Shown: positions 37,307 through 52,961 of the stretch, one piece after another
Position numbering within the stretch: position 1 is the first letter of the stretch
How the letters are laid out: the number at the start of each line of letters is the position of its first letter
DNA from: Rhodothermia bacterium
GTDB taxonomy: Bacteria > Bacteroidota > Rhodothermia > Rhodothermales > UBA2364
Assembly: GCA_017303715.1 (NCBI GenBank)
Contig: JAFLBZ010000007.1
Span: 1-64,000, forward strand
Length of the DNA: 64,000 nucleotides
Direction: 5' to 3'
The notes under the pieces: model-generated
What the model saw: only the letters and a program-made list of their open reading frames with translations
Told to the model about the DNA's origin: nothing
The model's database searches: none
Made by a program: the position numbers and the translations under genes

Positions 37307-40300
37307 ATGTCTGTTCAGAAAAAAATCTCGAACGTCCAACTGCGTATCGCCACTTGGCAACACACACAATGGTTGGCCTCGTCCTCTATCAAGCGATTGG
37401 GGAAAAAATTAGATTTAAGATCAACAGACCTTCACAAGCGGGATCTGTCTGGTCAAAATTTGTCCCAATCCTCGTTCAAAGAGGCCGATCTTTCCGCCTC
37501 AAAATTAGACGGGGCAACTTTAGATGAAGTCCAGTTCTCAGACGCTAACCTTCAAGAAGCCTCGCTTACGGGTATTTCGGCGAAACGTGCGTTTTTTGAG
37601 AAAGCCAACTTGGTAGAAGCCAAATTGATCAATGCCGATGTTCAATTCTCAAATTTTGACTTTGCCCAACTTGATCGCTGCAATTTCGGTTCGGCAAATT
37701 TGCGCGGAAGCTCTTTCAAAAATGCCAGCCTTTGCCAAGTAGATCTACATGCATGTTTGATAGACCAGGCCAACTTGTCTAATGCTGATCTACGCGAGGC
37801 CAATTTATCGGGAATGGACCTCACGTCCGTAAACCTGATGGGGGCAAACTTAGAAAAAACAAACCTTACTGGCGCAAATCTAAGAGGTGCAAATCTTAAA
37901 AACACCAACCTTCATGGTGCTATCTTGACAGGCGTTAACCTACAGGGCGCCAATTTAGAGGGCGTCATTTTAGACGAAATCTCTTTGGTTAATGCAAACC
38001 TGATCGGAATAAATCTCAAGGGCGCACGCATCCAAAAGTCGGACTTTCGGGCCGCAAAACTCCACGACGCCAATCTATCGGGAGCGCTCATAAGCGGGAC
38101 AGACCTCTCCTACGCCGAGTTTGAACGGGTAAACATGGCCGAATCGCTCTTGGAACATGTAACGTGTTATCGTACCCGATTTCGTGATGCCGTTTTCACC
38201 CAAGCACGGCTCAACCATTCCAATTTCCATAGTGCCGACCTCACGTATTGCAACATGGGTGGTGTCCGGTTCGCCTTTACCAACCTAAACGAAGCCAATT
38301 TGGAGGGCGCAAACCTACAGTCTTGTCACCTTTGGGGTGTTAGCTTAGAACAAGCCAATTTGGCACAGGCCGTGCTAACCAAATCGCTGATCGAACGTAC
38401 CAACCTCACTAAAGCAAAATTGGTAGGGGTTATTTTGAAAGGTGTTTCCATGCCAAATGTGGTCTTTGATCATGTCGTTCTGGATGGGATGAACTTAGAA
38501 AAAGCCGATCTACGCCAAGCAAGTTTACTTGGGACGAGTTTGCGCGGTGCTAATTTGGAAGGCGCTAATTTTCAGAATGCCTCCTTGCACAGTGCAAACC
38601 TATCGCATTCAAATCTGCGAAATGCAAATCTAAAGGGTGCTAATTTGTGGCGTATCAACCTCGAAGAAGCCCTATTAGACAACGCTGATCTGCGCGGCTG
38701 CAAATTGGATGAAGCCAACCTAAAACATGCCACCATGGTTGCCGCTGACCTTACTGGGGCCTCGCTCCTGAGAACAAATTTAGAGTTTGCAGACTTAAGC
38801 TCGGCTCTCCTGAACCAAGCGAACTTAGATGAGTCGTCCCTAAAAAAAGCAGTATTAGAAGCAGCAGAGATGGTAAATGCGTCTTGCGATAAGGCTGATT
38901 TTTCGGAACTCCAACTGAATAAAACCAAAAAACTTTTTGCAAACTTCCGTCAAGCAAACCTTGAACAAGCCAATCTTGCTGGCTTAAATCTCCAAGGCTT
39001 TGATTTTAGAGGGGCAAATCTCTCCCAAGCAAATTTACAAGACTGCAACCTCCAAAAGGCAAATTTTGAACATGCAAATCTTTCCGGTGCACTTCTTCGG
39101 AATGTTAATTTATTACAAACTCGTTTATCGGGAGCAAATTTACAACGGATTGACCTCCAACATACGCACTTGTCCAACCTTGTGCTAAACAACACCAATT
39201 TAGAAAAAGCAAATTTCAGTTTCGCCTCCCTTAACCAATGTAGTTTTCAAGAAGCTTCCCTGAGAGAGGCCATCTTTGAACATGCCAACTTCCTTCAATG
39301 TAATTTGGAGCGCGCAAGATTTGAACACACCGTCCTCAATAATGCTTCTTTCAAAGCCTGCAACTTAGCACAAAGCAATTTTCGGAATGCGCAAATGGAG
39401 CGCGGCCATATTGACCAATGCGGTGCAAGTAGTGCAATTTTTGACATGGCTTTAATGACCAATATAACGATTTCAACATCAAACCTTAATGAAGCTAACT
39501 TTGCACACGCTACCCTTTCTCAGGCCAAGTTCCACAACCTGTTCCTCAAATCAACCGTTTTTGAACGGGCTGACCTGAAAGATGCCACATTTAGCCATAT
39601 AGAACTGCTACAAACCAACTTTAAAGAAGCACGATTGGAGCGCGTGGCCTTCAAAAATGTCCGGTTTAAACAAGTCATTTTTGATAAAGCACACCTCGAT
39701 GAGGCGGATTGTAGCACCCTAAGTTTTGAATCGGTCTCCTTCCAAGAAGCAATCTTACGAGACACTAAATTCCCCCTTACCCACTTTGTGGACTGCCAGT
39801 TCAGGGGTGCATCATGTGTTAAAACCAAGTTTGCCGGTGCAACTTTTTTTGATTGCAAGTTGCCACAAACGCTCATGTCGCAAACCAATTTCAACAATGC
39901 TCGCTTTTGGTTCCCGGATTTTACAGGAAGTGTCTTCTCTGGTGCAAACTTGACCGATACCACCTTCAAGAAAGCCCAACTTGCCCATTGCCGCTTTGAA
40001 AAAGTCAAGATGGAACGGATGAACTTCCGAGATCAAATCTTAGAGAAAATCGCTTTTGAAGAATGCGACCTAAGCAATTCATTCTTCCAAGGAACCAACA
40101 TTAAAGATGTCACTTTTGAAAAAACTTTGTTAAATGGTACAAATTTTGAGGGTGCTATCTTTACTCGGGTGCGACTCCACCTTGCCAAGTTGCGCGGAAC
40201 TGTATTAAGAGAAGCACAACTGACCCAAATTGAAGCACCCTACTCCGATTTTCAAGGTAGCGATCTTCAAGGTGCTGTATTTGAAAACACGAATTTGCAG

Positions 40301-41026
40301 CAAGCAAACCTCCAGCTTATTAATGGACAAATGTTGATTTTTAAACATTGTGAACTACGAGGCACCAACTTTAGTGGTAGTAAGTTAGCCTTTGCACAAT
40401 TTAATCATCTACATTTAACAGACTGTAATTTTCAGAGGACAGACCTGTGGAAAGCTGAACTATCGGAGTGTCAAATTCAAAGTTGTTTCTTCCAAGAAGC
40501 GAATATGGCCGAGGCGAACTTATCGGGATCGGAGATAAACGAGTCTCATTTTGCTTTTACTTTGTTAAACGGGGTTAAAGCCTTACGAGCAAAGATACAG
40601 CAAAGTAATTTCAAGGGTGCATCTATGGAACAAGCTGTTTTTTCACAAACTGAAATCCAAAATACCATGTTTGATCAAGCCTTTATGGGGCAAGTGAACT
40701 TTGAGAAGGCACGTTTGTTTAGAAGCAGTTTTGAACGGGCAGATTTGAAAGGCTCATTACTCAATGGAACCCAAGTTTCGCGTTGCGACTTTAGGCATTC
40801 AAAACTTACAGAAGCCAACCTAAGCCATGCAAAGTGGGAACATGTCAAGTTAGATGGCGCGAATATGATTATGACACAGGTTCAAACGGCTGTTTTTGAA
40901 GATACAGACCTTAAGGCTGCTCGCTTACACTTTACCCAATTACCTGAAAACGTAACCACACCGCCGAATGCAACAACGCCCCCTATGGTCGTCCTAAGCA
41001 AAATAGAATCCGGTGGAAAACGATAA
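37307..41026 (+). CDS. Giant pentapeptide-repeat protein
   Basis: The 1239-residue protein has no signal peptide or membrane helix. After about 45 non-repeat residues (MSVQKKISNVQLRIATWQ...), A(D/N)LXX pentapeptides run almost unbroken to about residue 1220: ANLSGMDLTSVNLMGANLEK is typical. About 235 repeats would give roughly 59 coils of a right-handed quadrilateral beta-helix, near 28 nm long. Central residues are mostly Leu in the first 40% and increasingly Phe after about residue 550. One irregular break lies near residues 530-545 (LNKTKKLFANF). The tail is disordered-looking (TTPPNATTPP). A permuted actin-like gene follows after 54 bases. Known small pentapeptide proteins mimic DNA (Qnr, MfpA) or serve as scaffolds. 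Function here is unknown. Confidence 0.9.
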   Translation: MSVQKKISNVQLRIATWQHTQWLASSSIKRLGKKLDLRSTDLHKRDLSGQNLSQSSFKEADLSASKLDGATLDEVQFSDANLQEASLTGISAKRAFFEKANLVEAKLINADVQFSNFDFAQLDRCNFGSANLRGSSFKNASLCQVDLHACLIDQANLSNADLREANLSGMDLTSVNLMGANLEKTNLTGANLRGANLKNTNLHGAILTGVNLQGANLEGVILDEISLVNANLIGINLKGARIQKSDFRAAKLHDANLSGALISGTDLSYAEFERVNMAESLLEHVTCYRTRFRDAVFTQARLNHSNFHSADLTYCNMGGVRFAFTNLNEANLEGANLQSCHLWGVSLEQANLAQAVLTKSLIERTNLTKAKLVGVILKGVSMPNVVFDHVVLDGMNLEKADLRQASLLGTSLRGANLEGANFQNASLHSANLSHSNLRNANLKGANLWRINLEEALLDNADLRGCKLDEANLKHATMVAADLTGASLLRTNLEFADLSSALLNQANLDESSLKKAVLEAAEMVNASCDKADFSELQLNKTKKLFANFRQANLEQANLAGLNLQGFDFRGANLSQANLQDCNLQKANFEHANLSGALLRNVNLLQTRLSGANLQRIDLQHTHLSNLVLNNTNLEKANFSFASLNQCSFQEASLREAIFEHANFLQCNLERARFEHTVLNNASFKACNLAQSNFRNAQMERGHIDQCGASSAIFDMALMTNITISTSNLNEANFAHATLSQAKFHNLFLKSTVFERADLKDATFSHIELLQTNFKEARLERVAFKNVRFKQVIFDKAHLDEADCSTLSFESVSFQEAILRDTKFPLTHFVDCQFRGASCVKTKFAGATFFDCKLPQTLMSQTNFNNARFWFPDFTGSVFSGANLTDTTFKKAQLAHCRFEKVKMERMNFRDQILEKIAFEECDLSNSFFQGTNIKDVTFEKTLLNGTNFEGAIFTRVRLHLAKLRGTVLREAQLTQIEAPYSDFQGSDLQGAVFENTNLQQANLQLINGQMLIFKHCELRGTNFSGSKLAFAQFNHLHLTDCNFQRTDLWKAELSECQIQSCFFQEANMAEANLSGSEINESHFAFTLLNGVKALRAKIQQSNFKGASMEQAVFSQTEIQNTMFDQAFMGQVNFEKARLFRSSFERADLKGSLLNGTQVSRCDFRHSKLTEANLSHAKWEHVKLDGANMIMTQVQTAVFEDTDLKAARLHFTQLPENVTTPPNATTPPMVVLSKIESGGKR

Positions 41027-41080: not shown

Positions 41081-42106
41081 ATGTTGATTACATACCCTTT
41101 TCCCAGCGTTTACGAGACCCATAATGGCGACTTGGTTAATGTAGCTTCCGATTTGTTACAAGGCATGAAAATCTATTCGGATCAAACAGGCTATATTATT
41201 GGTCAGCTCGCCCTTTCAGAAGGGATCAATCCGCATAAAGCCATTAACAGTTCGCCACATGAGTTGGATTACAGGCTCTTGGTGCAGTCTGGCTTGCTCC
41301 TCGCCTCCAGCCTTAGCGATGAGCCTATCGTCCTGACGTCCGGCTTCCCCTTCTCTACGTACAACATGAACCGCCAAGCAGCCATAGATTATATCACGGG
41401 AACTCACAGGATTGAGTACGCCCCTTCTACCTTTGGCGGTTCTACGCGCCAATTCCGCTCGGTTGCCGTTGCCAAAACAGAAATCATTCCAGAAATTTTT
41501 GGATGCGTAAAAGCCACCAGAAACGCAGAGGAGTTTAGGGAAAAGCCATTTTTTATGGTCAGTTTGGGCTATGGGACTTTTGAAGCCTGTTTGAGCAACA
41601 AGTCTGGAATCGTCCAAAGAACCATGATCTCGGCCCAAGGGATTCGTTATGCGGTGGACGACTGCATGAAGGAACTGTCTAAGAGCTATTATTTGGGCTT
41701 ACGTACCGAACATCAATTTGATGTAGCCTTCCAGTCTGGTTCCACCATGCTTAATCGGAAACGGATTGATATTACGGAAATCCGTAAAATTGCGTTGAAG
41801 CGATACTTCCGGAACGTCATCGCTTCGGCCATCCGCAACTTGTGGACTGATGAGGACTTTGGCAAAACAGACACTTTGGTGATTGCTGGAGGTGGCGCAC
41901 TTTACACAGACCTAATGGATTGCTTTGACGAGGAATATGGCGATACGCTAAATATCCGTGTGCTTGATGACCCGCTTACCGCTGCAAGTCGGGGATACTG
42001 CATTCATTCCGTTGAGGTCACTGGAGATCAGAATAGTGTAGCGGTTGGTTTGGACATTGGAAACGCAAATACGGTTGTCACCATTTATTCCGATTTTGCC
42101 CCTTAA
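41081..42106 (+). CDS. Circularly permuted actin-like (ParM/Ta0583-type) protein
   Basis: The 341-residue protein aligns by eye with Ta0583/ParM-type actins, but from the second strand pair onward: YPFPSVYE (residues 5-12), TGYIIGQLAL (36-45), EPIVLTSGFPFSTY (81-94), the phosphate-2 loop MVSLGYGTFEACL (159-171) and the adenosine motif VIAGGGALYTDLM (267-279). The phosphate-1 motif that normally starts such proteins is at the end: VGLDIGNANTVVTIYSD (322-338). The order is therefore circularly permuted, and no DxG motif precedes the start. The usual phosphate-1 Lys is Val332 and the usual phosphate-2 Asp is Ser161, so ATP hydrolysis may be altered or lost. It lies 54 bases after the giant pentapeptide gene and before a terminator, suggesting a two-gene operon. 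A cytoskeletal or scaffold role is inference. Confidence 0.85.
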   Translation: MLITYPFPSVYETHNGDLVNVASDLLQGMKIYSDQTGYIIGQLALSEGINPHKAINSSPHELDYRLLVQSGLLLASSLSDEPIVLTSGFPFSTYNMNRQAAIDYITGTHRIEYAPSTFGGSTRQFRSVAVAKTEIIPEIFGCVKATRNAEEFREKPFFMVSLGYGTFEACLSNKSGIVQRTMISAQGIRYAVDDCMKELSKSYYLGLRTEHQFDVAFQSGSTMLNRKRIDITEIRKIALKRYFRNVIASAIRNLWTDEDFGKTDTLVIAGGGALYTDLMDCFDEEYGDTLNIRVLDDPLTAASRGYCIHSVEVTGDQNSVAVGLDIGNANTVVTIYSDFAP

Positions 42107-42150: not shown

Positions 42151-42179
42151 AAGCGGCGTTTTTTTTACGTCGCTTTTTT
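42151..42179 (+). terminator. Terminator of the pentapeptide/actin-like operon
   Basis: AAGCGGCG (42151-42158) pairs with CGTCGCTT (42168-42175), with one G-T pair, around a T-rich loop and followed by T residues. It closes the two-gene unit 37307-42106. Confidence 0.8.
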
Positions 42180-42257
42180 GTTATGTTAAAAATTCGCCCT
42201 ATTTTTCCGCACCTCCACTTGAGGACACAGCATAAGTTCACGATAAACCTTTCACGT

Positions 42258-45200
42258 ATGACGAAAAAAACATGGTTCTTGAGTATTATTGGAGCCACCA
42301 TCGCTTTATTGGTCATCTACTTTTGGCCCTCAAAAAATCAATTCTTAGTTGCAGCAGAACGTAAAGGTCCCGGCGAATTTGCGGCTTGGCATCAACTCAT
42401 CCGCACCAAAGACGGGGAAAAAAGCCCTTCATATCCGGCAAATTACAGAATAAACGAACTGAACAAGGCGCTGAACAATCCCTATTTATTAGGTAAGCGT
42501 AGCACCGTATTGAATTGGCAAGAGCGAGGGCCATTCAATATTTCGGGGCGTACTCGTGCCATTGTTGTAGATGTTTCGGACGCAACCGGAGACACTTGGT
42601 TTGCGGGTACAGCTGGTGGTGGCATTTGGAAAACCACCAATGCGGGAAGGTCGTGGCAAGACAAAACCCCCTTGCTCCCAAACTTGGCGACGATCTCAAT
42701 GGTACAATCGCCCACAAATCCAGACCTCCTCTATGCCGGAACAGGCGAAGGATTTAACAATATTGACGCAATCCGAGGAGACGGTATTTTTGTCTCGAAA
42801 GATCACGGCGAAACATGGAAGCAGTTGGCCGCCACAGCTTCCAACAACGATTTCAAGTTTGTAAACCGGTTGGTTATAGACCCCAAAAACCCAGACATTC
42901 TTTTGGCGGCAACGAATACAGGCGTTTTTAAAACAACCGATGGGGGCGAATCTTGGAAAAATGTGATGGGCGGCTGGGTACAACAAATTGTTGCTAACCC
43001 CCTAAATTTTAAAACGTTATACGCGGCAAGAAACGGAAACGGCGTGTATAAATCGGTGAATAGAGGCGAGACCTGGACAAAAACCGAATTTGGCATTACG
43101 GACGGTTTTGGAAGATCGGAGTTAGCCGTAGCCGCACAAGACACCAATTTGGTTTATGCGGCCGTCGTTGTTTCGGTAACGGTGGACAATACGAAAAAAT
43201 CAGATTCACGCCTTATGGTGAGCCGAGACGGCGCTCAAACATGGTCTGCAACCACTTACCAACGGGTTTCCGGCAACCTAAAAGCCAATTGGATGAGCGA
43301 CCAAGGGTGGTACGATAATACGATTGCCGTCAATCCATTAAACAAAAATGAAGTCTTTGTAGGCGGGATAGACATTGTCCGCCTTACATTGAATCCCTCC
43401 GACAATTCCTTTTTAACAACCCACCTCACGAGTGGATATGGCGGGGCGGGGTGTCAGAACTACTTTGGCTCGCCTTGTATTGCCCCCACTGCTACCGCCG
43501 ATGTGCACGTGGATCAACATCTACTGGTTCCCTTTTTGGAGACCAGCAATTCCTTTAGGCTCCTTGCCGCAAACGATGGTGGAATCGCATACTCAAGTGA
43601 TATGGGGAATAATTGGGTTCAATTTGACGGTATCCAGTCCACTCAATTCTATGGCGCATCAAAAAAACCCTTGGTTCAGGCGTATTTCGGTGGTATGCAA
43701 GACAATGGCACTTGGTTTACGGGAGATAACGCTTCCCCCCAAACGGCTTGGCGCAGTGCCATGGGTGGCGATGGTTTTGAGGTTATTTGGCACCAAACAG
43801 ACCCAACAAAAATGATGGGTGCTTCGCAATTTAATGGCGTAAGTCGTTCTGAAAACAGTGGAACTTCCTTTCAAGCCTTATCGAATCTGACAGATCGTGG
43901 AACAGGTAAAGGCCCTTTTATCACACTTTTGGCAAATAGCCCCATGAATGCCGATCGGGTGTTTGCCGTGGGTTCATCTGGGGTATGGCGAACCAATGAC
44001 TTCGGAACCAATTGGGAAGTAAAAAAGCCCGGAGACGGTTGGAACTGGAGCGGCGCAGATGTTCGGGTCTCTATGGCCAATCCCAACATCATTTGGACAG
44101 GCAATGGCCTCACCGGAGGACGATTCTTGTTTGTCTCGAACGACGGTGGAGACACCTACGCGCCAGTTTCGACCTATAACGCTACCCTTGGCAATGTGAC
44201 AACCCTTGCCACACATCCAACACAAGATTCTACGGCGTTCGCACTTTATTCTATTTCAAATGCACCTAAGATCCTAAGAACCAAAGATTTAGGAAAAACA
44301 TGGGAGGACATTTCCGGTTTTGGCTCAGGTACACTAAGCAGTACAGGATTTCCGAATGTTGCCGTCTATTCTTTATTGGTCTTGCCCCATGCACCGCAGA
44401 CGATTTGGGTTGGTACTGAAATCGGGCTGTTCGAGTCGGTTGATGAGGGCAAAACATGGCACTATGCCAATAACGGACTTCCAGCGGTTGCTATCTGGAC
44501 GATGGAGGTGATTGATGACGAAGTGGTTCTGGGGACACATGGCCGGGGTGTCTGGACAGTAAAGATTCCCGAACTCCTTACCCACTCCTTCCAGCCGCCG
44601 GTGGTCAAAGAATTTGGCCAAATTACCGGAGAACCTCCAGTGGCAACGTTCGTTTTGAGAACGGTATATGACTCCACATGGGTGTTTGTAAACCAAACCA
44701 AACTTAAAACCATTCCAAAAAACAACGCTGGGGATATCCTTTCGCCCGACCTTAACAGCCTTACCGCAAAATCCCTGAACCTTACCATTCGTGTTTTTAG
44801 AGGGAACAAGAGCATTAATGTGACACGAGGCTTAAACAATCTTAGCCCGTTTGGCCCACTGCTAACAGGTATTGCGACGGACTTTGACACCTCCGAAGCC
44901 AATGGACTGTTCTTTACCCCGGGATCGGCGGATGGCGATGCCGTCTTCGGAATCTCTACGGCTCCAGGATTTACAGGGCGTGCTATCCATACCCAACACC
45001 CTGTATCCATTGCTCCGGGAAGTACATTTATTTTCCAATTGACCAGTAAAATAACCGTTGCCGCCGTTAGTAGCGACGCTTTTATGGAGTACGACGAAAT
45101 TGCGATCCTTAAACCGGGCGCAACGGGGTCTAAATTCCCAGATTTTGAATTTGGTGGGTATGTTGTTCCAGAAGGCAGTAAAGATGGGAAAAACTGGACT

Positions 45201-45719
45201 CCACTGGCCGCTGGAGTCAATAGCAGTGCCTATACCGAATGGCGAACCGCTTATACAAACAAAACCAACGGAAATCCGTCTTTGGTGAAACGCAAGAAAA
45301 TTGACCTACTAAAAACCTTTAAATCTGGTGATAAGATCAATATTCGGTTCCACCTCATTAACCCTTCTGGCACTTTAGATGGATGGGGATGGATGGCCGA
45401 TAATCTTGAAATCCAAAAACGCAAACTGGTTCCGAACGAGCAAGAAACGCAACCGCTTCAATTTACACTCGCCCAGAATTACCCCAATCCGTTTAATCCA
45501 TCCACCAATATTCGGTTTACCCTAAACCGGACGGGATGGGTAAACCTGCAAGTATTTGACCTAAACGGGCGCTTGGTTCGCACCCTGATCAATGCACAAA
45601 CCGAGGCCGGAAGCCATTCCATACGTTTTGATGCACAAAACCTTCCAAGTGGAACCTATGTGTATCGGATAAAAACAGCACAAGGCATACAAAGCCGTAA
45701 AATGACCTTCTTAAAATAA
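42258..45719 (+). CDS. Exported BNR/VPS10-like beta-propeller protein with T9SS sorting domain
   Basis: The ATG at 42258 (MTKKTWFLSIIGATIALLV) gives 1153 residues and a good signal peptide; an upstream in-frame start at 42183 overlaps the preceding terminator. The first 750 residues contain repeated BNR/Asp-box blades: GGGIWKTTNAGRSW, GIFVSKDHGETW, GVFKTTDGGESW and GVYKSVNRGETW. They resemble sortilin/glycosyl-hydrolase propellers. A beta-sandwich region follows. The C-terminus is a T9SS type A sorting domain with YPNPFNPSTNIRF, LNGRLVRTL and SGTYVYRI. It would be exported to the cell surface or medium. No glycosidase catalytic pair was recognised, so a binding role is as likely as an enzymatic one. 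Confidence 0.85.
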   Translation: MTKKTWFLSIIGATIALLVIYFWPSKNQFLVAAERKGPGEFAAWHQLIRTKDGEKSPSYPANYRINELNKALNNPYLLGKRSTVLNWQERGPFNISGRTRAIVVDVSDATGDTWFAGTAGGGIWKTTNAGRSWQDKTPLLPNLATISMVQSPTNPDLLYAGTGEGFNNIDAIRGDGIFVSKDHGETWKQLAATASNNDFKFVNRLVIDPKNPDILLAATNTGVFKTTDGGESWKNVMGGWVQQIVANPLNFKTLYAARNGNGVYKSVNRGETWTKTEFGITDGFGRSELAVAAQDTNLVYAAVVVSVTVDNTKKSDSRLMVSRDGAQTWSATTYQRVSGNLKANWMSDQGWYDNTIAVNPLNKNEVFVGGIDIVRLTLNPSDNSFLTTHLTSGYGGAGCQNYFGSPCIAPTATADVHVDQHLLVPFLETSNSFRLLAANDGGIAYSSDMGNNWVQFDGIQSTQFYGASKKPLVQAYFGGMQDNGTWFTGDNASPQTAWRSAMGGDGFEVIWHQTDPTKMMGASQFNGVSRSENSGTSFQALSNLTDRGTGKGPFITLLANSPMNADRVFAVGSSGVWRTNDFGTNWEVKKPGDGWNWSGADVRVSMANPNIIWTGNGLTGGRFLFVSNDGGDTYAPVSTYNATLGNVTTLATHPTQDSTAFALYSISNAPKILRTKDLGKTWEDISGFGSGTLSSTGFPNVAVYSLLVLPHAPQTIWVGTEIGLFESVDEGKTWHYANNGLPAVAIWTMEVIDDEVVLGTHGRGVWTVKIPELLTHSFQPPVVKEFGQITGEPPVATFVLRTVYDSTWVFVNQTKLKTIPKNNAGDILSPDLNSLTAKSLNLTIRVFRGNKSINVTRGLNNLSPFGPLLTGIATDFDTSEANGLFFTPGSADGDAVFGISTAPGFTGRAIHTQHPVSIAPGSTFIFQLTSKITVAAVSSDAFMEYDEIAILKPGATGSKFPDFEFGGYVVPEGSKDGKNWTPLAAGVNSSAYTEWRTAYTNKTNGNPSLVKRKKIDLLKTFKSGDKINIRFHLINPSGTLDGWGWMADNLEIQKRKLVPNEQETQPLQFTLAQNYPNPFNPSTNIRFTLNRTGWVNLQVFDLNGRLVRTLINAQTEAGSHSIRFDAQNLPSGTYVYRIKTAQGIQSRKMTFLK

Positions 45720-47497: not shown

Positions 47498-47667
47498 ATT
47501 TCCCAATGATAAATGTGTGGTTAATAACGGCAGGATTCAGTAGTGCTAAGGTACGTTATGCGTTTTTTTGAAGGAAGGCTTCGCTTCACTTCCCAAGAGA
47601 AAAGCCATGTTGTATATTGAAATTACTCCGGCCATCATCCCAAAATATGCTATCAACCCAAATAAAG

Positions 47668-49575
47668 ATGCAAGGACATTCCTTAGACCTCACACAAGAC
47701 CTTCTTGCCCAGCTAAAAGCGATTGTGCCACAGGCTTTTACCGAAGATAAATTGGACGTGGCACAGCTTAAAACGCTCCTTGGAGAAACCGCCTTTGCCG
47801 ATGGTGAACGCTATGGGCTTTCTTGGGCAGGTAAAACCGAAGCCTACAAAGTTTTACAACGTCCGACAACGGCAACCTTGATTCCTAACCCCGAAGATTC
47901 GGAGGAGTGGGAAAATGCGCCACACGTTTTGATTGAAGGCGAAAACTTGGAGGTGCTGAAGGTGTTGCAAAAGTCGTATTACGGCAAGGTGAAAATGATC
48001 TACATTGATCCGCCGTACAACACAGGCAACGATTCTTTTATTTACCCCGATAAATTTTCCGAAACCAAAGAAGAATATTTGCGCCGAATAGGAGATAAGG
48101 ACGAAGAAGGGCGCATGATGAAACAAGGTTTCTTTCGTAAAAACAGCAAAGAAAATGGACAGTTTCATAGCAACTGGCTGAATATGATGCTACCGCGCCT
48201 TTTTTTGGCAAGAAACCTGCTCAAAGAAGACGGTGTGATCTTTGTCTCGATTGATGACAACGAGCAAGCCAACCTCAAACTTTTGATGGATGAGATTTTT
48301 GGCGAGGAAAATTTTGTGGGTCAATGGAACTGGTTTAAATCTGCAACACCACCTAATTTATCTAAAAAAATTAAGAAAAAAATAGAATACATCTTATGTT
48401 ATCATAAAGGAGGAAATAATGACAGATTTAAAGGTATTAGAAAAAAAAGTAACAGTGATGACCCAATAAGTAAACCACAGAATACCCTTAAGCAATTAGT
48501 ATTTCAACCTAATCAATTAAGTATTTCTTTAGAAAACCAAACACTCAAAAAAGGAGTTTATGGTACAGATAAATATCCAAATAAGTTATTGAATGATCTA
48601 ATTATTGAAAACCAGAAAAATAAAAATACAGTAGTCTTTGAAAACCGATTTACATGGACACAAAGTAAATTAGAAGAAGAAATAAGTAATGGAACTTCAA
48701 TCAATTTGTCTAAGAATTTGGTTCTTTCATACAAAAAATCAGATTATGAACCAGAAGTTCCTCCAAATCTAATTGATAAAGAATCTGGTGTGGATACAAC
48801 AGAAAACGCCGGCAAGCTATTAATAAATCTTTTTGATGGAATTGAGCTATTTGATTACCCGAAGCCTGTTTCACTATTAAAATACCTTACTAACTTTTGT
48901 TGTACTTCTACAGACATCATTCTTGACTTCTTTGCAGGATCAGGTACGCTTGCCCAAGCGGTTTTAGAGCTAAACGAAGAAGATGGAGGCAAGCGCCAGT
49001 ATATTTGTGTGCAGTTACCCGAAGCCACCGACGAGAAAAGCGAAGCCTACAAAGCAGGCTACAAAAGCATTGCCGAAATTACCCAAGCCCGCATCAAAAA
49101 AGTAATAGCGCAAATCAAAGCCAAACGAAACGGCGCACTCGAATTTGCCAAATTTCCCTTGCTTGGTTTCCGTAAATACACCCTTGCATCGTCCAATTTC
49201 AAGATATGGCGAGGCGATATTTTGGAAACCGAAGAAGATTTATTGCGCCAAATGGACATGTTTACCACGCCACAGCGCCCCGAATCGCAAACGGAAAATA
49301 TCCTTTGGGAGTTACTCATTAAAAATGGTATTCCACTCACCGAAGCCATCCAAACGATTGTATTGGAAGATGGCATCAGCAAAATCTATCATACCCCAAA
49401 CAAACGCTTTGCCTTTGTTTTAGATCATTTCACGCAAGCCGTACAAGACGAAGTTTTACAATTAGCCCCGAAAACCGTTATTTGTTTGGATAGCCTTTTC
49501 AAAGGAAGAGACACCGATAAAACCAATGCGCAATTAAAATTTGAAGACAATGGCATTACCTTCAAAACGGTGTGA
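47668..49575 (+). CDS. mod: Type III restriction-modification system, methyltransferase subunit Mod
   Basis: From the ATG at 47668 the product has 635 residues; in-frame starts at 47617 (TTG) and 47647 (ATG) are less likely. The adenine-methyltransferase motif IV, IYIDPPYNTG, lies near residue 113 and motif I, DFFAGSGTLAQAV, near 420, the order of beta-class Mod proteins. The stretch between, about residues 225-415, is the target-recognition domain; its DNA (about 48340-48920) is clearly more AT-rich than the gene's ends. Mod methylates adenine at an asymmetric site and gives specificity to the Res partner encoded at 50244. The stop overlaps the start of the next gene as TGATG. Confidence 0.93.
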   Translation: MQGHSLDLTQDLLAQLKAIVPQAFTEDKLDVAQLKTLLGETAFADGERYGLSWAGKTEAYKVLQRPTTATLIPNPEDSEEWENAPHVLIEGENLEVLKVLQKSYYGKVKMIYIDPPYNTGNDSFIYPDKFSETKEEYLRRIGDKDEEGRMMKQGFFRKNSKENGQFHSNWLNMMLPRLFLARNLLKEDGVIFVSIDDNEQANLKLLMDEIFGEENFVGQWNWFKSATPPNLSKKIKKKIEYILCYHKGGNNDRFKGIRKKSNSDDPISKPQNTLKQLVFQPNQLSISLENQTLKKGVYGTDKYPNKLLNDLIIENQKNKNTVVFENRFTWTQSKLEEEISNGTSINLSKNLVLSYKKSDYEPEVPPNLIDKESGVDTTENAGKLLINLFDGIELFDYPKPVSLLKYLTNFCCTSTDIILDFFAGSGTLAQAVLELNEEDGGKRQYICVQLPEATDEKSEAYKAGYKSIAEITQARIKKVIAQIKAKRNGALEFAKFPLLGFRKYTLASSNFKIWRGDILETEEDLLRQMDMFTTPQRPESQTENILWELLIKNGIPLTEAIQTIVLEDGISKIYHTPNKRFAFVLDHFTQAVQDEVLQLAPKTVICLDSLFKGRDTDKTNAQLKFEDNGITFKTV

Positions 49576-50186
49576 TGGATAGATTTAAAGGAAAATATCG
49601 TATCCCATCCGCACGATTGCCTGATTATGATTATGGGCAAGAAGGGGCGTATTTCATTACCGTTTGTACGCATAATCAGGCGCATTATTTTGGCGAGGTG
49701 AGAAATGGTAAAATGGTGTTAAATGGGATTGGGGCGATGGTGCAAGGGTTTTGGTATGATATTCCGCACCATTTCGATCATGTTTCATTGGGCGAATTTG
49801 TGGTAATGCCCAATCATGTACACGGCATTTTGATTTTGGATAAAATGGTTGACGTTGTGGATAACGACGTACCCGTTGATCCCGTAGAGACGTTGCATTG
49901 CAACGTCTCTACGGGATCAACGGGATCCAATTTTTTTCAATCCATTTCCCCCAAACCGGGATCCGTCCCAACCATTATCCGTTCGTTCAAATCGGTCTGC
50001 ACCAAATACATAAACCAGCATCAACCCGAATTACATTTTGCATGGCAAACCCGCTACCACGACCATATTATCCGTGATGAAACCGCCTTTCAACGGATTA
50101 GCCATTACATTTGGAATAACCCCAAAAAATGGACAGAAGACCGTTTTTATCTGCCAGACGAAACCGAAAAAACGCCCAACCCATAA
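49575..50186 (+). CDS. REP-associated tyrosine transposase (RAYT, Y1 family)
   Basis: The 203-residue protein opens with a basic segment and GAYFITVCTHNQAHYFG, typical of RAYTs. The metal-binding HVHG (residues 81-84) follows FVVMPN. The candidate nucleophile is Tyr161 in YHDHIIRDE, and ISHYIWNNPKKW is the usual ending. Residues 100-117 are encoded by a perfect 53-base palindrome, apparently a REP-type element inserted in frame between HVHG and the second half. RAYTs cut and join single-stranded REP hairpins. The start overlaps the mod stop (TGATG), so the gene separates mod from res. Confidence 0.88.
   Translation: MDRFKGKYRIPSARLPDYDYGQEGAYFITVCTHNQAHYFGEVRNGKMVLNGIGAMVQGFWYDIPHHFDHVSLGEFVVMPNHVHGILILDKMVDVVDNDVPVDPVETLHCNVSTGSTGSNFFQSISPKPGSVPTIIRSFKSVCTKYINQHQPELHFAWQTRYHDHIIRDETAFQRISHYIWNNPKKWTEDRFYLPDETEKTPNP
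49872..49924. repeat. Perfect 53-base palindrome inside the RAYT gene
   Basis: Two 26-base arms, 49872-49897 and 49899-49924, are exact reverse complements around a single T. The core reads GTAGAGACGTTGCA on each side. I recognise this core as resembling a widespread bacterial REP-like hairpin, but I cannot verify that here. It is translated in frame as PVDPVETLHCNVSTGSTG. Confidence 0.95.
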
Positions 50187-50243
50187 AACGAACGTTATAA
50201 AACAAAAACTGCAGCAGTTTGTCGCAGAATTTAATTTCGATCT

Positions 50244-52961
50244 ATGAAAATCCAATTTGATAAAAACCAAACGTACCAAATAGAAGCCGTCCAATCCGTT
50301 ATCGAACTATTGGAAGGGCAACCGTTGCAAACATCAGATTTTGAATTTAACCTTTCCGATGGACAGGAAGGAAGTTTGCTTTTGAATGAAACCGGCATTG
50401 GAAATCAGTTGGTACTTTCCGATGAACAACTGCTGTCCAATATCCAAAAAGTACAAGCCCAAAATGAAATAGCGCCTTCAACGGCTTTGTCGTGCATGAA
50501 TTACCAAGAAGGAGGCGAAACTTTTGATACCACGTTTGGCAATTTTGCGGTCGAAATGGAAACAGGCACAGGAAAAACGTATGTGTATCTTCGCACCATT
50601 TACGAACTCAATAAAGTCTATGGATTCAAGAAATTTGTAATTGTTGTGCCATCGGTTGCTATCCGAGAAGGTGTAATCAAAAATCTACAAATCACCTTCG
50701 AGCATTTTCAGGAACTGTATGAAAACGTACCCGCAGGTTTCGAGGTGTACGATTCCAAGAAGTTAGCCAACCTTGCCAACTTTGCACGGAGCAACGCCAT
50801 TCAAATTTTGGTCATCAACATTGATAGCTTTACCAAAGACAACAACATTATCAATACCGTCCGAGAGCGAGGGATAAAGCCCATCGAGCATATTCAAGGA
50901 ACACAACCCATTGTGATTATTGACGAACCGCAGAATATGGAAACCGAGATTCGTAAGAAAGCCATTGCCAACCTTAAACCCCTTTTTGCGCTTCGATATT
51001 CTGCCACCCACACCAACGCTTATAATCTTGTTTACAAACTCGATCCCGTCAAAGCCTACGATTTAGGTTTGGTCAAACAAATCGAAGTGGATTCTGTGGT
51101 GGCTGAAAATGATAACGGAGGCGCTTTTGTGCGATTAGATAGCTTCAAACAAGCGAAAAAATCCGTTTCGGCGGTGCTAACGATGCTGAAAAGCGACAAA
51201 TCAGGCGTTTCTAAAAAGTCCATAACCGTAAAATTAGGTGATAACTTGTATCTGTTATCAGGAGACGTAGAAGCCTACCGAGAAGGTTATATCATCAATG
51301 CAATTGATTCAGAGGAAGGAAAGATTGAGTTTTCAGGTGGGACAACGCTTTATAAAGGCGAACCGCAGGGCGGATTAAACGAGGAAATTCAAAAAGAAAT
51401 GATTCGCGCCACCATCGAAAACCATTTGAGGAAAGAAGCAGAATTGAATCCATTGGGCATCAAAGTTTTGTCTGTTTTCTTCCTTGATAAAGTTGCTCAT
51501 TATCGGGCGTATGATACCAACGGAGCGCCACAGGCAGGAAAATTTGCTTTGTGGTTTGAAGAACTACTTGCAAAAGCCTTACAGAATCCGAAATACAAGA
51601 ATTTGTATGCAAGTCCTCTTTCAGAAATGCACGATGGCTATTTTTCCCAAGATAAAGGTAAATTCAAAGATTCGTCTGGCACCACCAAAGCCGATGATGA
51701 AGCCTTCAAACTCATTATGAAAGACAAAGAACGGCTTTTGGACATGAATACGCCACTTCGATTTATTTTTAGCCATTCCGCACTTCGAGAAGGTTGGGAC
51801 AATCCGAATGTATTTCAGATTTGCACCTTGAATGAATCAAGATCGGAAATCAAAAAGCGCCAAGAAATAGGGCGCGGATTGCGCCTTTGTGTAAACCAAG
51901 AAGGCATACGAAATACAGAACGGAGCATCAACCGTTTAACCGTCATTGCCAACGAAAGCTACGAAGCCTTTGCAGGATCGCTACAAAAAGAAATCGAGCA
52001 AGATTGTGGCGTTCAGTTTGTAGGACGGATCAAAAATGCACGACAACGGCAAAAAATAGCACTCAAAAAACATTGGCAATTGGATCAAAACTTTTTGGAT
52101 TTATGGAATCGAATCAAACACAAAACCGAGTACAAAGTAGATTACAGCACCGCCGACTTGATAAAACAAGCAGGTGAAGCCGTAAGAACCATGCCAACGA
52201 TTCCCAAGCCAAGCATTGCGCGTACCCGTGTAGAAGTGAAATTCGAGCGAGATGCAACCAATCAAGTATCAGAAATTGGCGGTGAATACAAAACATCAAA
52301 AAGCGTAACGGTTGAAGCACGTTTTGATATTCCCGATTTCTTGGGCTATATCCAATCCAAAACCGAACTTACACGCGATACCATTGCCCAAATTATCCAG
52401 TATTCAGGAAGACTGAAGGAGATTTTCCATAATCCACAAGTCTTTATGGATAGCGTAGTTCGTGAGATCAAAACCGAGTTTGACCGCTTGAAAGTGAATG
52501 GCATTAAGTACGAAAAAATTGCAGGGAAAAGCTATGAAATGACATTGTTTGAGAGCCAAGAAATCGAATCGTACATGGATAGCCTCATTGCCGTTAAAAA
52601 TCAAGACAAAACCTTGTATAGTCATATTTTGATTGATTCTTTTTCGACACCCGAAACCGATTTTGCAAAGGCTTGTGAAAGCCGAGAAGACATCTTATTT
52701 TACATAAAATTGCCTTCATGGTTTGTGGTGAGAACGCCCATCGGAAACTATAACCCTGATTGGGCTTTGATTAAACAAGAGGAAGGCGAAGAAAAGCGGA
52801 TTTACTTTGTGGCTGAAACCAAGAGCCAAAAAGCCATTCAAGACCGTAACTTGCTCCGAGAAACCGAGCGCATGAAAATACATTGTGGCGAAAAGCATTT
52901 CGCCGAGTTTGACAATGTAACCTTTAAAGCGGTTGGCAGTTCGAAAGAGTTGGTTGTGTGA
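50244..52961 (+). CDS. res: Type III restriction-modification system, helicase-nuclease subunit Res
   Basis: The 905-residue protein has an SF2 helicase core. Walker A is METGTGKTY near residue 107 and the DEAD-type box is IVIIDEPQNME near residue 226. Motif VI region is QEIGRGLRLCVN. The C-terminus carries a PD-(D/E)XK nuclease: NPDWALIK near 838 and FVAETKSQ near 855. With Mod it forms the type III restriction enzyme that cleaves after ATP-driven communication between two head-to-head sites. Length and order are normal. The usual direct mod-res junction is interrupted by the RAYT gene, leaving 57 non-coding bases before this start. Confidence 0.93.
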   Translation: MKIQFDKNQTYQIEAVQSVIELLEGQPLQTSDFEFNLSDGQEGSLLLNETGIGNQLVLSDEQLLSNIQKVQAQNEIAPSTALSCMNYQEGGETFDTTFGNFAVEMETGTGKTYVYLRTIYELNKVYGFKKFVIVVPSVAIREGVIKNLQITFEHFQELYENVPAGFEVYDSKKLANLANFARSNAIQILVINIDSFTKDNNIINTVRERGIKPIEHIQGTQPIVIIDEPQNMETEIRKKAIANLKPLFALRYSATHTNAYNLVYKLDPVKAYDLGLVKQIEVDSVVAENDNGGAFVRLDSFKQAKKSVSAVLTMLKSDKSGVSKKSITVKLGDNLYLLSGDVEAYREGYIINAIDSEEGKIEFSGGTTLYKGEPQGGLNEEIQKEMIRATIENHLRKEAELNPLGIKVLSVFFLDKVAHYRAYDTNGAPQAGKFALWFEELLAKALQNPKYKNLYASPLSEMHDGYFSQDKGKFKDSSGTTKADDEAFKLIMKDKERLLDMNTPLRFIFSHSALREGWDNPNVFQICTLNESRSEIKKRQEIGRGLRLCVNQEGIRNTERSINRLTVIANESYEAFAGSLQKEIEQDCGVQFVGRIKNARQRQKIALKKHWQLDQNFLDLWNRIKHKTEYKVDYSTADLIKQAGEAVRTMPTIPKPSIARTRVEVKFERDATNQVSEIGGEYKTSKSVTVEARFDIPDFLGYIQSKTELTRDTIAQIIQYSGRLKEIFHNPQVFMDSVVREIKTEFDRLKVNGIKYEKIAGKSYEMTLFESQEIESYMDSLIAVKNQDKTLYSHILIDSFSTPETDFAKACESREDILFYIKLPSWFVVRTPIGNYNPDWALIKQEEGEEKRIYFVAETKSQKAIQDRNLLRETERMKIHCGEKHFAEFDNVTFKAVGSSKELVV

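Follow-up and report, generated by a model that had tools for sequence, protein, structure and literature searches.

The permuted actin-like gene

On the forward strand of the 64,000-nucleotide stretch of Rhodothermia DNA analysed here (the window), the open reading frame (ORF) at 41081–42106 encodes a 341-residue actin-like protein whose recognisable segments occur in an order that is almost certainly a circular permutation: strand 3, strand 4, Glu138, phosphate 2 (residues 158–168), adenosine (G270–G272) and, last of all, phosphate 1. The phosphate-1 motif VGLDIGNANTVV occupies residues 322–333 and YPFPSV, close to the start, residues 5–10. These coordinates, the protein length and the position of the phosphate-1 motif had been given in a preliminary description of this DNA, with which the translation of the ORF agrees. 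The gene and its parts are as follows.

41081–42106, forward strand: permuted actin-like protein, 341 residues (ORF translation, Pfam, homologues and model)
41084–41104, forward strand: N-terminal strand, residues 2–8, equivalent to actin strand 3 and containing FPS from F7 (DSSP on the model)
41327–41347, forward strand: strand 83–89, equivalent to actin strand 4 (model; best parallel coupling partner of strand 320–326)
41492–41494, forward strand: E138, at the position where relatives of Ta0583 have an invariant Gln
41552–41584, forward strand: phosphate-2 loop, residues 158–168, including S161 at the position of the canonical Asp (profile alignment and counts)
41888–41896, forward strand: adenosine motif G270–G272 (conservation counts)
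42023–42037, forward strand: linker, residues 315–319, connecting the former C-terminal helix with the former N-terminal hairpin (DSSP on the model)
42038–42088, forward strand: relocated phosphate-1 hairpin, strands 320–326 and 330–336 (model, homologues, profile rotation and couplings)

The Pfam family ALP_N (PF17989) matches residues 7–141 with 34.1 bits (cut-off 26.3), and by this match above cut-off the window protein is, as judged from its sequence, an actin-like protein of the ParM/Ta0583 type. The match runs from position 21 to 148 of the 148 profile positions and hence leaves the first 20 positions without an N-terminal counterpart; in actins, strand 3 normally comes right after the first hairpin. 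MreB-like_C (PF21522) reached 24.1 bits at residues 163–274 of the window protein, under its cut-off of 27.8, and is present in the precomputed annotation of many homologues. A single-sequence search of solved structures with the window protein gave no actin match, and all NCBIfam matches were weak and below cut-off: the best of these, pelota (17.5 bits, cut-off 177.65), was taken as chance, and an identity as MreB was rejected at 15.2 bits against the NCBIfam cut-off of 293. The genome of the window has a separate MreB.

Motif order among homologues

The position of phosphate 1 was determined in 241 proteins, comprising the query together with the best 120 of 375 and the best 120 of 197 matches from two protein-database searches. 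A GxDxG-type motif lies in the last quarter of 240 of these, which extends to the family what had been described for the window protein, namely phosphate 1 at the very end and after the adenosine motif; the one protein without it (P0087) is a fragment ending within the motif, and in none of the 241 does the motif start within the first 80 residues. With 240 of 241 homologues sharing this placement, the C-terminal motif is not a product of chance. The possibility raised in the preliminary description, that the gene has merely been truncated and rejoined, is ruled out by the same set, as an N-terminal phosphate-1 hairpin is found in 0 of the 241 homologues. Four of these proteins were excluded by length from the family alignment, and among the remaining 237 sequences G323, D325, G327 and N328 are each invariant; the spacing from GY to GxDxG, taken over 239 proteins, is 17–18 residues at the 5th–95th percentile, with a range of 4–36.

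Across 394 genomes of the phylum, ALP_N gave 12 matches in 11 genomes, every one of them starting at profile position 15–21. A profile built from the family, more sensitive than ALP_N, gave 25 matches in 23 of the 394 genomes (11 of 170 genera): 24 of these reach profile position 336–339, beyond the hairpin, and the remaining one is a contig-end fragment. With each species represented by one genome, a scan returned 42 loci with the organism labels Bacteroidota, Balneolota and Ignavibacteriota, which is a lower bound given that the scan relied on a single pattern. Long N-terminal extensions rich in Lys, Pro, Ala and Ser (more than 100 residues) precede the FPS strand in P0010, P0015 and P0016, where they sit at the new N-terminus made by the permutation. 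Two homologues (G166:C101:14418-15434 and G075:C125:74758-75771) contain one in-frame stop each, due to sequencing error or decay.

Predicted fold

Two AlphaFold2 models, calculated from alignments without a common row, had predicted local distance difference test (pLDDT) values of 91.9 and 85.5. Both superpose on solved actins over a span reaching from just past the first hairpin of the latter through their last helix, and both end in a C-terminal hairpin, with strands 320–326/330–336 in the first model (pLDDT of the 10-residue blocks 93/80) and 325–330/334–340 in the second (96/90). Across linker and hairpin together (residues 311–340), the blocks have pLDDT values of 82, 93 and 80 in one model and 97, 96 and 90 in the other.

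The order of segments was also analysed by comparing a profile of the 237 permuted proteins with a second profile, built from 92 canonical relatives that had been retrieved with Ta0583. In native order, permuted residues 3–310 align with canonical residues 21–320 at a score of 77.7, in keeping with the earlier remark that the start of the protein matches what normally follows the first hairpin. With columns 317–338 put first, the score was 93.1 and the alignment ran from 4–332 against 2–320, as compared to a mean of 76.1 (maximum 87.4) for 60 shuffles of the moved columns and a mean of 77.1 when each of 29 other segments was duplicated at the front instead, where the top score (86.0) came from the segment around the phosphate-2 loop. 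One match of the family profile to DnaK shows two stretches in reversed order (319–336 with DnaK 3–20, 130–214 with DnaK 161–252), each individually weak. Mean-field couplings, obtained at an effective depth of 99 sequences, rank the pair 85–324 14th of 56,280, and strand 320–326 couples best, out of 608 partner windows, with 83–89 in parallel orientation; strands 1 and 4 are parallel neighbours in the actin sheet.

Since the models superpose from just past the first hairpin and the rotated profile outscores the native one, we assign the protein as a circular permutant, the predicted structure of which is an actin fold opened at the strand 2–3 turn, with the original ends joined. As far as sequence and prediction go, there is very little doubt about the permutation. 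Searches of a library of open-licence PMC papers, by exact phrase and, among the matches listed, by topic, turned up no circularly permuted actin, and a preprint on the search for permutations (PMC12667903) does not mention actin.

Nucleotide site and known actins

Within the nucleotide site, the permuted family and its canonical relatives differ at two invariant or near-invariant positions. The phosphate-2 Asp, present in 92/92 relatives of Ta0583, is replaced by Ser in 236 of 237 permuted proteins and by Asn in one, whilst the E138 position, which we take to be the catalytic Gln/Glu position of actins, holds Glu in 237/237 permuted proteins and Gln in 92/92 relatives. The adenosine glycines are kept in the permuted family (G270 and G272 in 237/237, G271 in 236/237), and in the canonical relatives the phosphate-1 Asp lies within the N-terminal hairpin in 91 of 92. 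Loss of the phosphate-2 Asp in actins should slow the hydrolysis of adenosine triphosphate (ATP). As this Asp is replaced by Ser, slow hydrolysis is plausible in the permuted family, a prediction to which we give about even weight. A literature search for ParM D170E found no report among the matches listed.

Ta0583 of Thermoplasma (PDB 2fsj) has its phosphate 1 at the N-terminus, whereas it is C-terminal in the permuted family; ParM of pCBH (PDB 6ixw) and the chromosomal Dh-cParM1 (PDB 8x1i) are of canonical order as well and so differ from the family in the same way. MreB and MamK also have the canonical order, unlike the permuted proteins. In the case of CorM and FcmB from cyanobacteria, presumably kin of each other, and of BeeR from Verrucomicrobiota, the alignment with the model begins at chain residue 59, with room for an N-terminal hairpin ahead. 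The accessible part of the main text of the FcmB paper (PMC12645912), like the accessible parts of the reports on chromosomal ParM, mentions neither permutation nor bactofilin.

The bactofilin neighbour and its tryptophan tail

ORFs were clustered over 50 loci and the downstream DNA of 57 loci was searched with a profile. The most widespread non-actin cluster is a downstream bactofilin (33 of the 50 loci), named as such by Pfam in 6/6 cluster proteins tested. ParM is paired with its partner ParR, whereas the permuted actin adjoins this bactofilin gene: of the 46 loci in which the actin ORF was kept, 30 have bactofilin as the very next ORF downstream on the actin's side, as opposed to three loci at most for any other cluster. 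By profile search, 40 of the 57 loci have a bactofilin on the same strand no more than 2 kb downstream; the 57 include near copies (L013 and L002, for example, are identical). Paired loci come from Cyclobacteriaceae, Chitinophagaceae and Balneolota, from the order to which the window belongs and, in one case, from Ignavibacteriota. A quickly built tree of 42 actins, for which 4 of the 57 loci were left out and 11 Chitinophagaceae rows dropped, requires six changes in the pairing, four of them forced by well-supported branches; this tree is compatible with an ancient pairing that was lost repeatedly, although its root is unsure. That actin and bactofilin form a working pair is, in our assessment, probable.

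The paired bactofilins carry a Trp within their last three residues in 37 of 40 cases (endings such as RFW, SWF, GGWI, IEW and KLW). Among 55 bactofilins from 33 genomes, this tail is present in 21 of 23 paired proteins versus 0 of 32 encoded elsewhere, or in 21/24 versus 0/31 when the bactofilin of L018 (L089), there counted as elsewhere, is moved to the paired class; a p-value for this split would be unsafe owing to the relatedness of the sequences. Two of the 32 other bactofilins have a Trp deeper inside their last 40 residues, and the second stretches L070 and L071 did not enter the count as proteins of their own. The split is clean within single genomes; 21 of 22 genomes with the pairing hold at least two bactofilins, and the 11 genomes without it hold one or none. 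Two genomes (G014 and G024; loci L005, L006, L009 and L010) possess two permuted actin genes each, every one followed by its own Trp-tailed bactofilin.

According to a 2025 study (PMC12448750), most bactofilin tails are short and poorly conserved, and BacP of M. xanthus binds its partner PadC via its C-terminal tail. Given that such tails are mostly poorly conserved, that PadC binds one of them and that the tails found here end in a conserved Trp beside the permuted actin gene, the Trp tail is a good candidate docking peptide, resembling the BacP–PadC case. Docking by this tail is itself plausible, and we would place it midway between likely and unlikely. The preliminary description suggested that the permutation would alter filament capping or the way the protein is joined to a partner; for such a partner, the adjoining bactofilin gene with its Trp tail supplies a candidate. 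When 20 paired actins were set against 13 unpaired ones in search of a Trp-binding site, D114 (20/20 versus 6/13) emerged as a weak lead; as leads of this kind are weak and confounded by ancestry, no Trp-binding site is claimed.

The window's genus presents a different neighbour, directly ahead of the actin gene.

37307–41026, forward strand: pentapeptide-repeat protein of 1239 residues, 54 bp upstream of the permuted actin, with repeats over most of its length (Pfam)

Among the loci clustered, only those of this genus, namely the window and three relatives fetched, have a pentapeptide-repeat protein beside the actin. They lack the bactofilin gene, and each of three genomes of the genus has one bactofilin, on another contig. 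Because bactofilins and pentapeptide-repeat proteins are both beta-helices, a swap of scaffold from the former to the latter is conceivable.

Interpretation

The explanation that we consider likely is a conserved, circularly permuted actin-like family that partners a dedicated bactofilin in the cytoskeleton and probably hydrolyses ATP slowly. The phosphate-1 hairpin, last in sequence, would fold back to its normal position in the actin sheet, with the new N- and C-termini both emerging at the strand 2–3 turn. ATP would be bound through the usual three loops and hydrolysed slowly, the phosphate-2 Asp being Ser, and the permuted actin would assemble with copies of itself. The C-terminal Trp tail of the bactofilin would hold the actin on the bactofilin scaffold in the way in which the tail of FtsZ binds FtsA, our model for tail docking on an actin. 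The window's copy has lost its bactofilin gene and stands behind the giant pentapeptide-repeat protein, a possible partner. A wider picture can be offered only tentatively: a two-polymer cytoskeleton of Bacteroidota and allied phyla, composed of permuted actin and a Trp-tailed bactofilin scaffold, in which the cut would free the chain ends at the exposed strand 2–3 turn, the Asp-to-Ser change would lead to long-lived filaments and the tail would anchor the actin at the membrane, the pentapeptide-repeat beta-helix having possibly taken over the scaffold role in the window's genus.

Several points weigh against the likely explanation. The position of the hairpin in the actin sheet is a prediction: the preliminary description had the hairpin completing subdomain IA, for which the C-terminal hairpin of two otherwise superposing models and the coupling of 320–326 with 83–89 speak, but the expected coupling of 330–336 with 2–8 was not recovered at the effective depth of 99, the best window being 150–156. 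Bactofilin is absent downstream in 17 of the 57 loci, including the window and its genus, a class that may be overcounted since the unpaired L078 and L081 have only about 900 bases downstream and L018, whose actin is identical to that of L078, has its bactofilin at 1.2 kb; at least 14 of the 57 loci have less than 2 kb of downstream sequence, and draft genomes may miss a bactofilin. Chitinophagaceae contribute 17 of the 40 paired loci, so that the paired-locus counts are not independent events, and the Trp is missing in three paired bactofilins. Finally, ATP binding, hydrolysis, polymerisation and the interaction with bactofilin are properties that we infer.

A different role for the relocated hairpin would be its donation in trans, where each subunit lends its C-terminal strands to the nucleotide site of the following one and polymers are held together by strand exchange instead of being made of permuted monomers. 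Neither couplings nor profile rotation can distinguish intrachain from interchain contacts, which would accommodate such an exchange, but both single-chain models give hairpin and linker with fair to high confidence and the linker length is nearly constant; we therefore regard donation in trans as quite improbable, with the models not being decisive on this point since single-chain prediction cannot show exchange. A modest chance is given to a regulatory or chaperone-like ATPase, nearer to Hsp70 in its use, that would bind and release bactofilin Trp tails in a nucleotide-dependent manner without polymerising. The protein could also be a chromosomal DNA-segregation actin, comparable to ParM with a ParR-like adapter, with the bactofilin as an incidental neighbour: some homologues are named ParM/StbA in sequence sources, so that domain matches are being taken to imply a role in segregation, and the partition-protein family 691 of PHROGs matches two of three members tested. 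This is unlikely in view of how regularly bactofilin recurs immediately downstream across distant lineages, when no other cluster does so in more than a few loci, although most neighbour clusters are unannotated and no search for ParR or a centromere was made. An artefact, in the form of a truncated or rearranged gene, an assembly error or a chance C-terminal DxG, can practically be dismissed, as the same order recurs in nearly all homologues and in the genomes of many species.

A permutant conserved over three phyla (NCBI names) would demonstrate that the nucleotide site of actin can withstand a cut through its first sheet, and would offer a natural test of the constraints that chain ends place on filament contacts. 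Such a permutant would further join the actin and bactofilin cytoskeletons via one gene pair and one conserved tail.

Other features of the locus

Beyond bactofilin, ORF cluster 2 was found at 24 of the 50 loci and consists of sensor kinases and response regulators (two representatives assigned by Pfam) at varying places and on varying strands, being the immediate upstream gene in two loci; as a large promiscuous family it was set aside as a partner. Clusters of the Chitinophaga group, including a peptidase, a terpene synthase, a flavin oxidoreductase and others, reflect close relatedness. A LysR regulator occurs near three unpaired loci (cluster 16; one checked). Past the end of the actin ORF, one further element was noted.

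42151–42175, forward strand: terminator-like hairpin and T run, plausible by position only

Such sites number two in the 1.5 kb scanned, against 2.0 expected by chance. Directly downstream, at 42183–45719, the window encodes a 1178-residue protein with sortilin/BNR repeats and a secretion-system C-terminal sorting domain. Further on, at 47617–52961, a DNA methylase (N6_N4_Mtase) is followed by a protein with ResIII and endonuclease domains, and the two genes look like a type III restriction-modification system.
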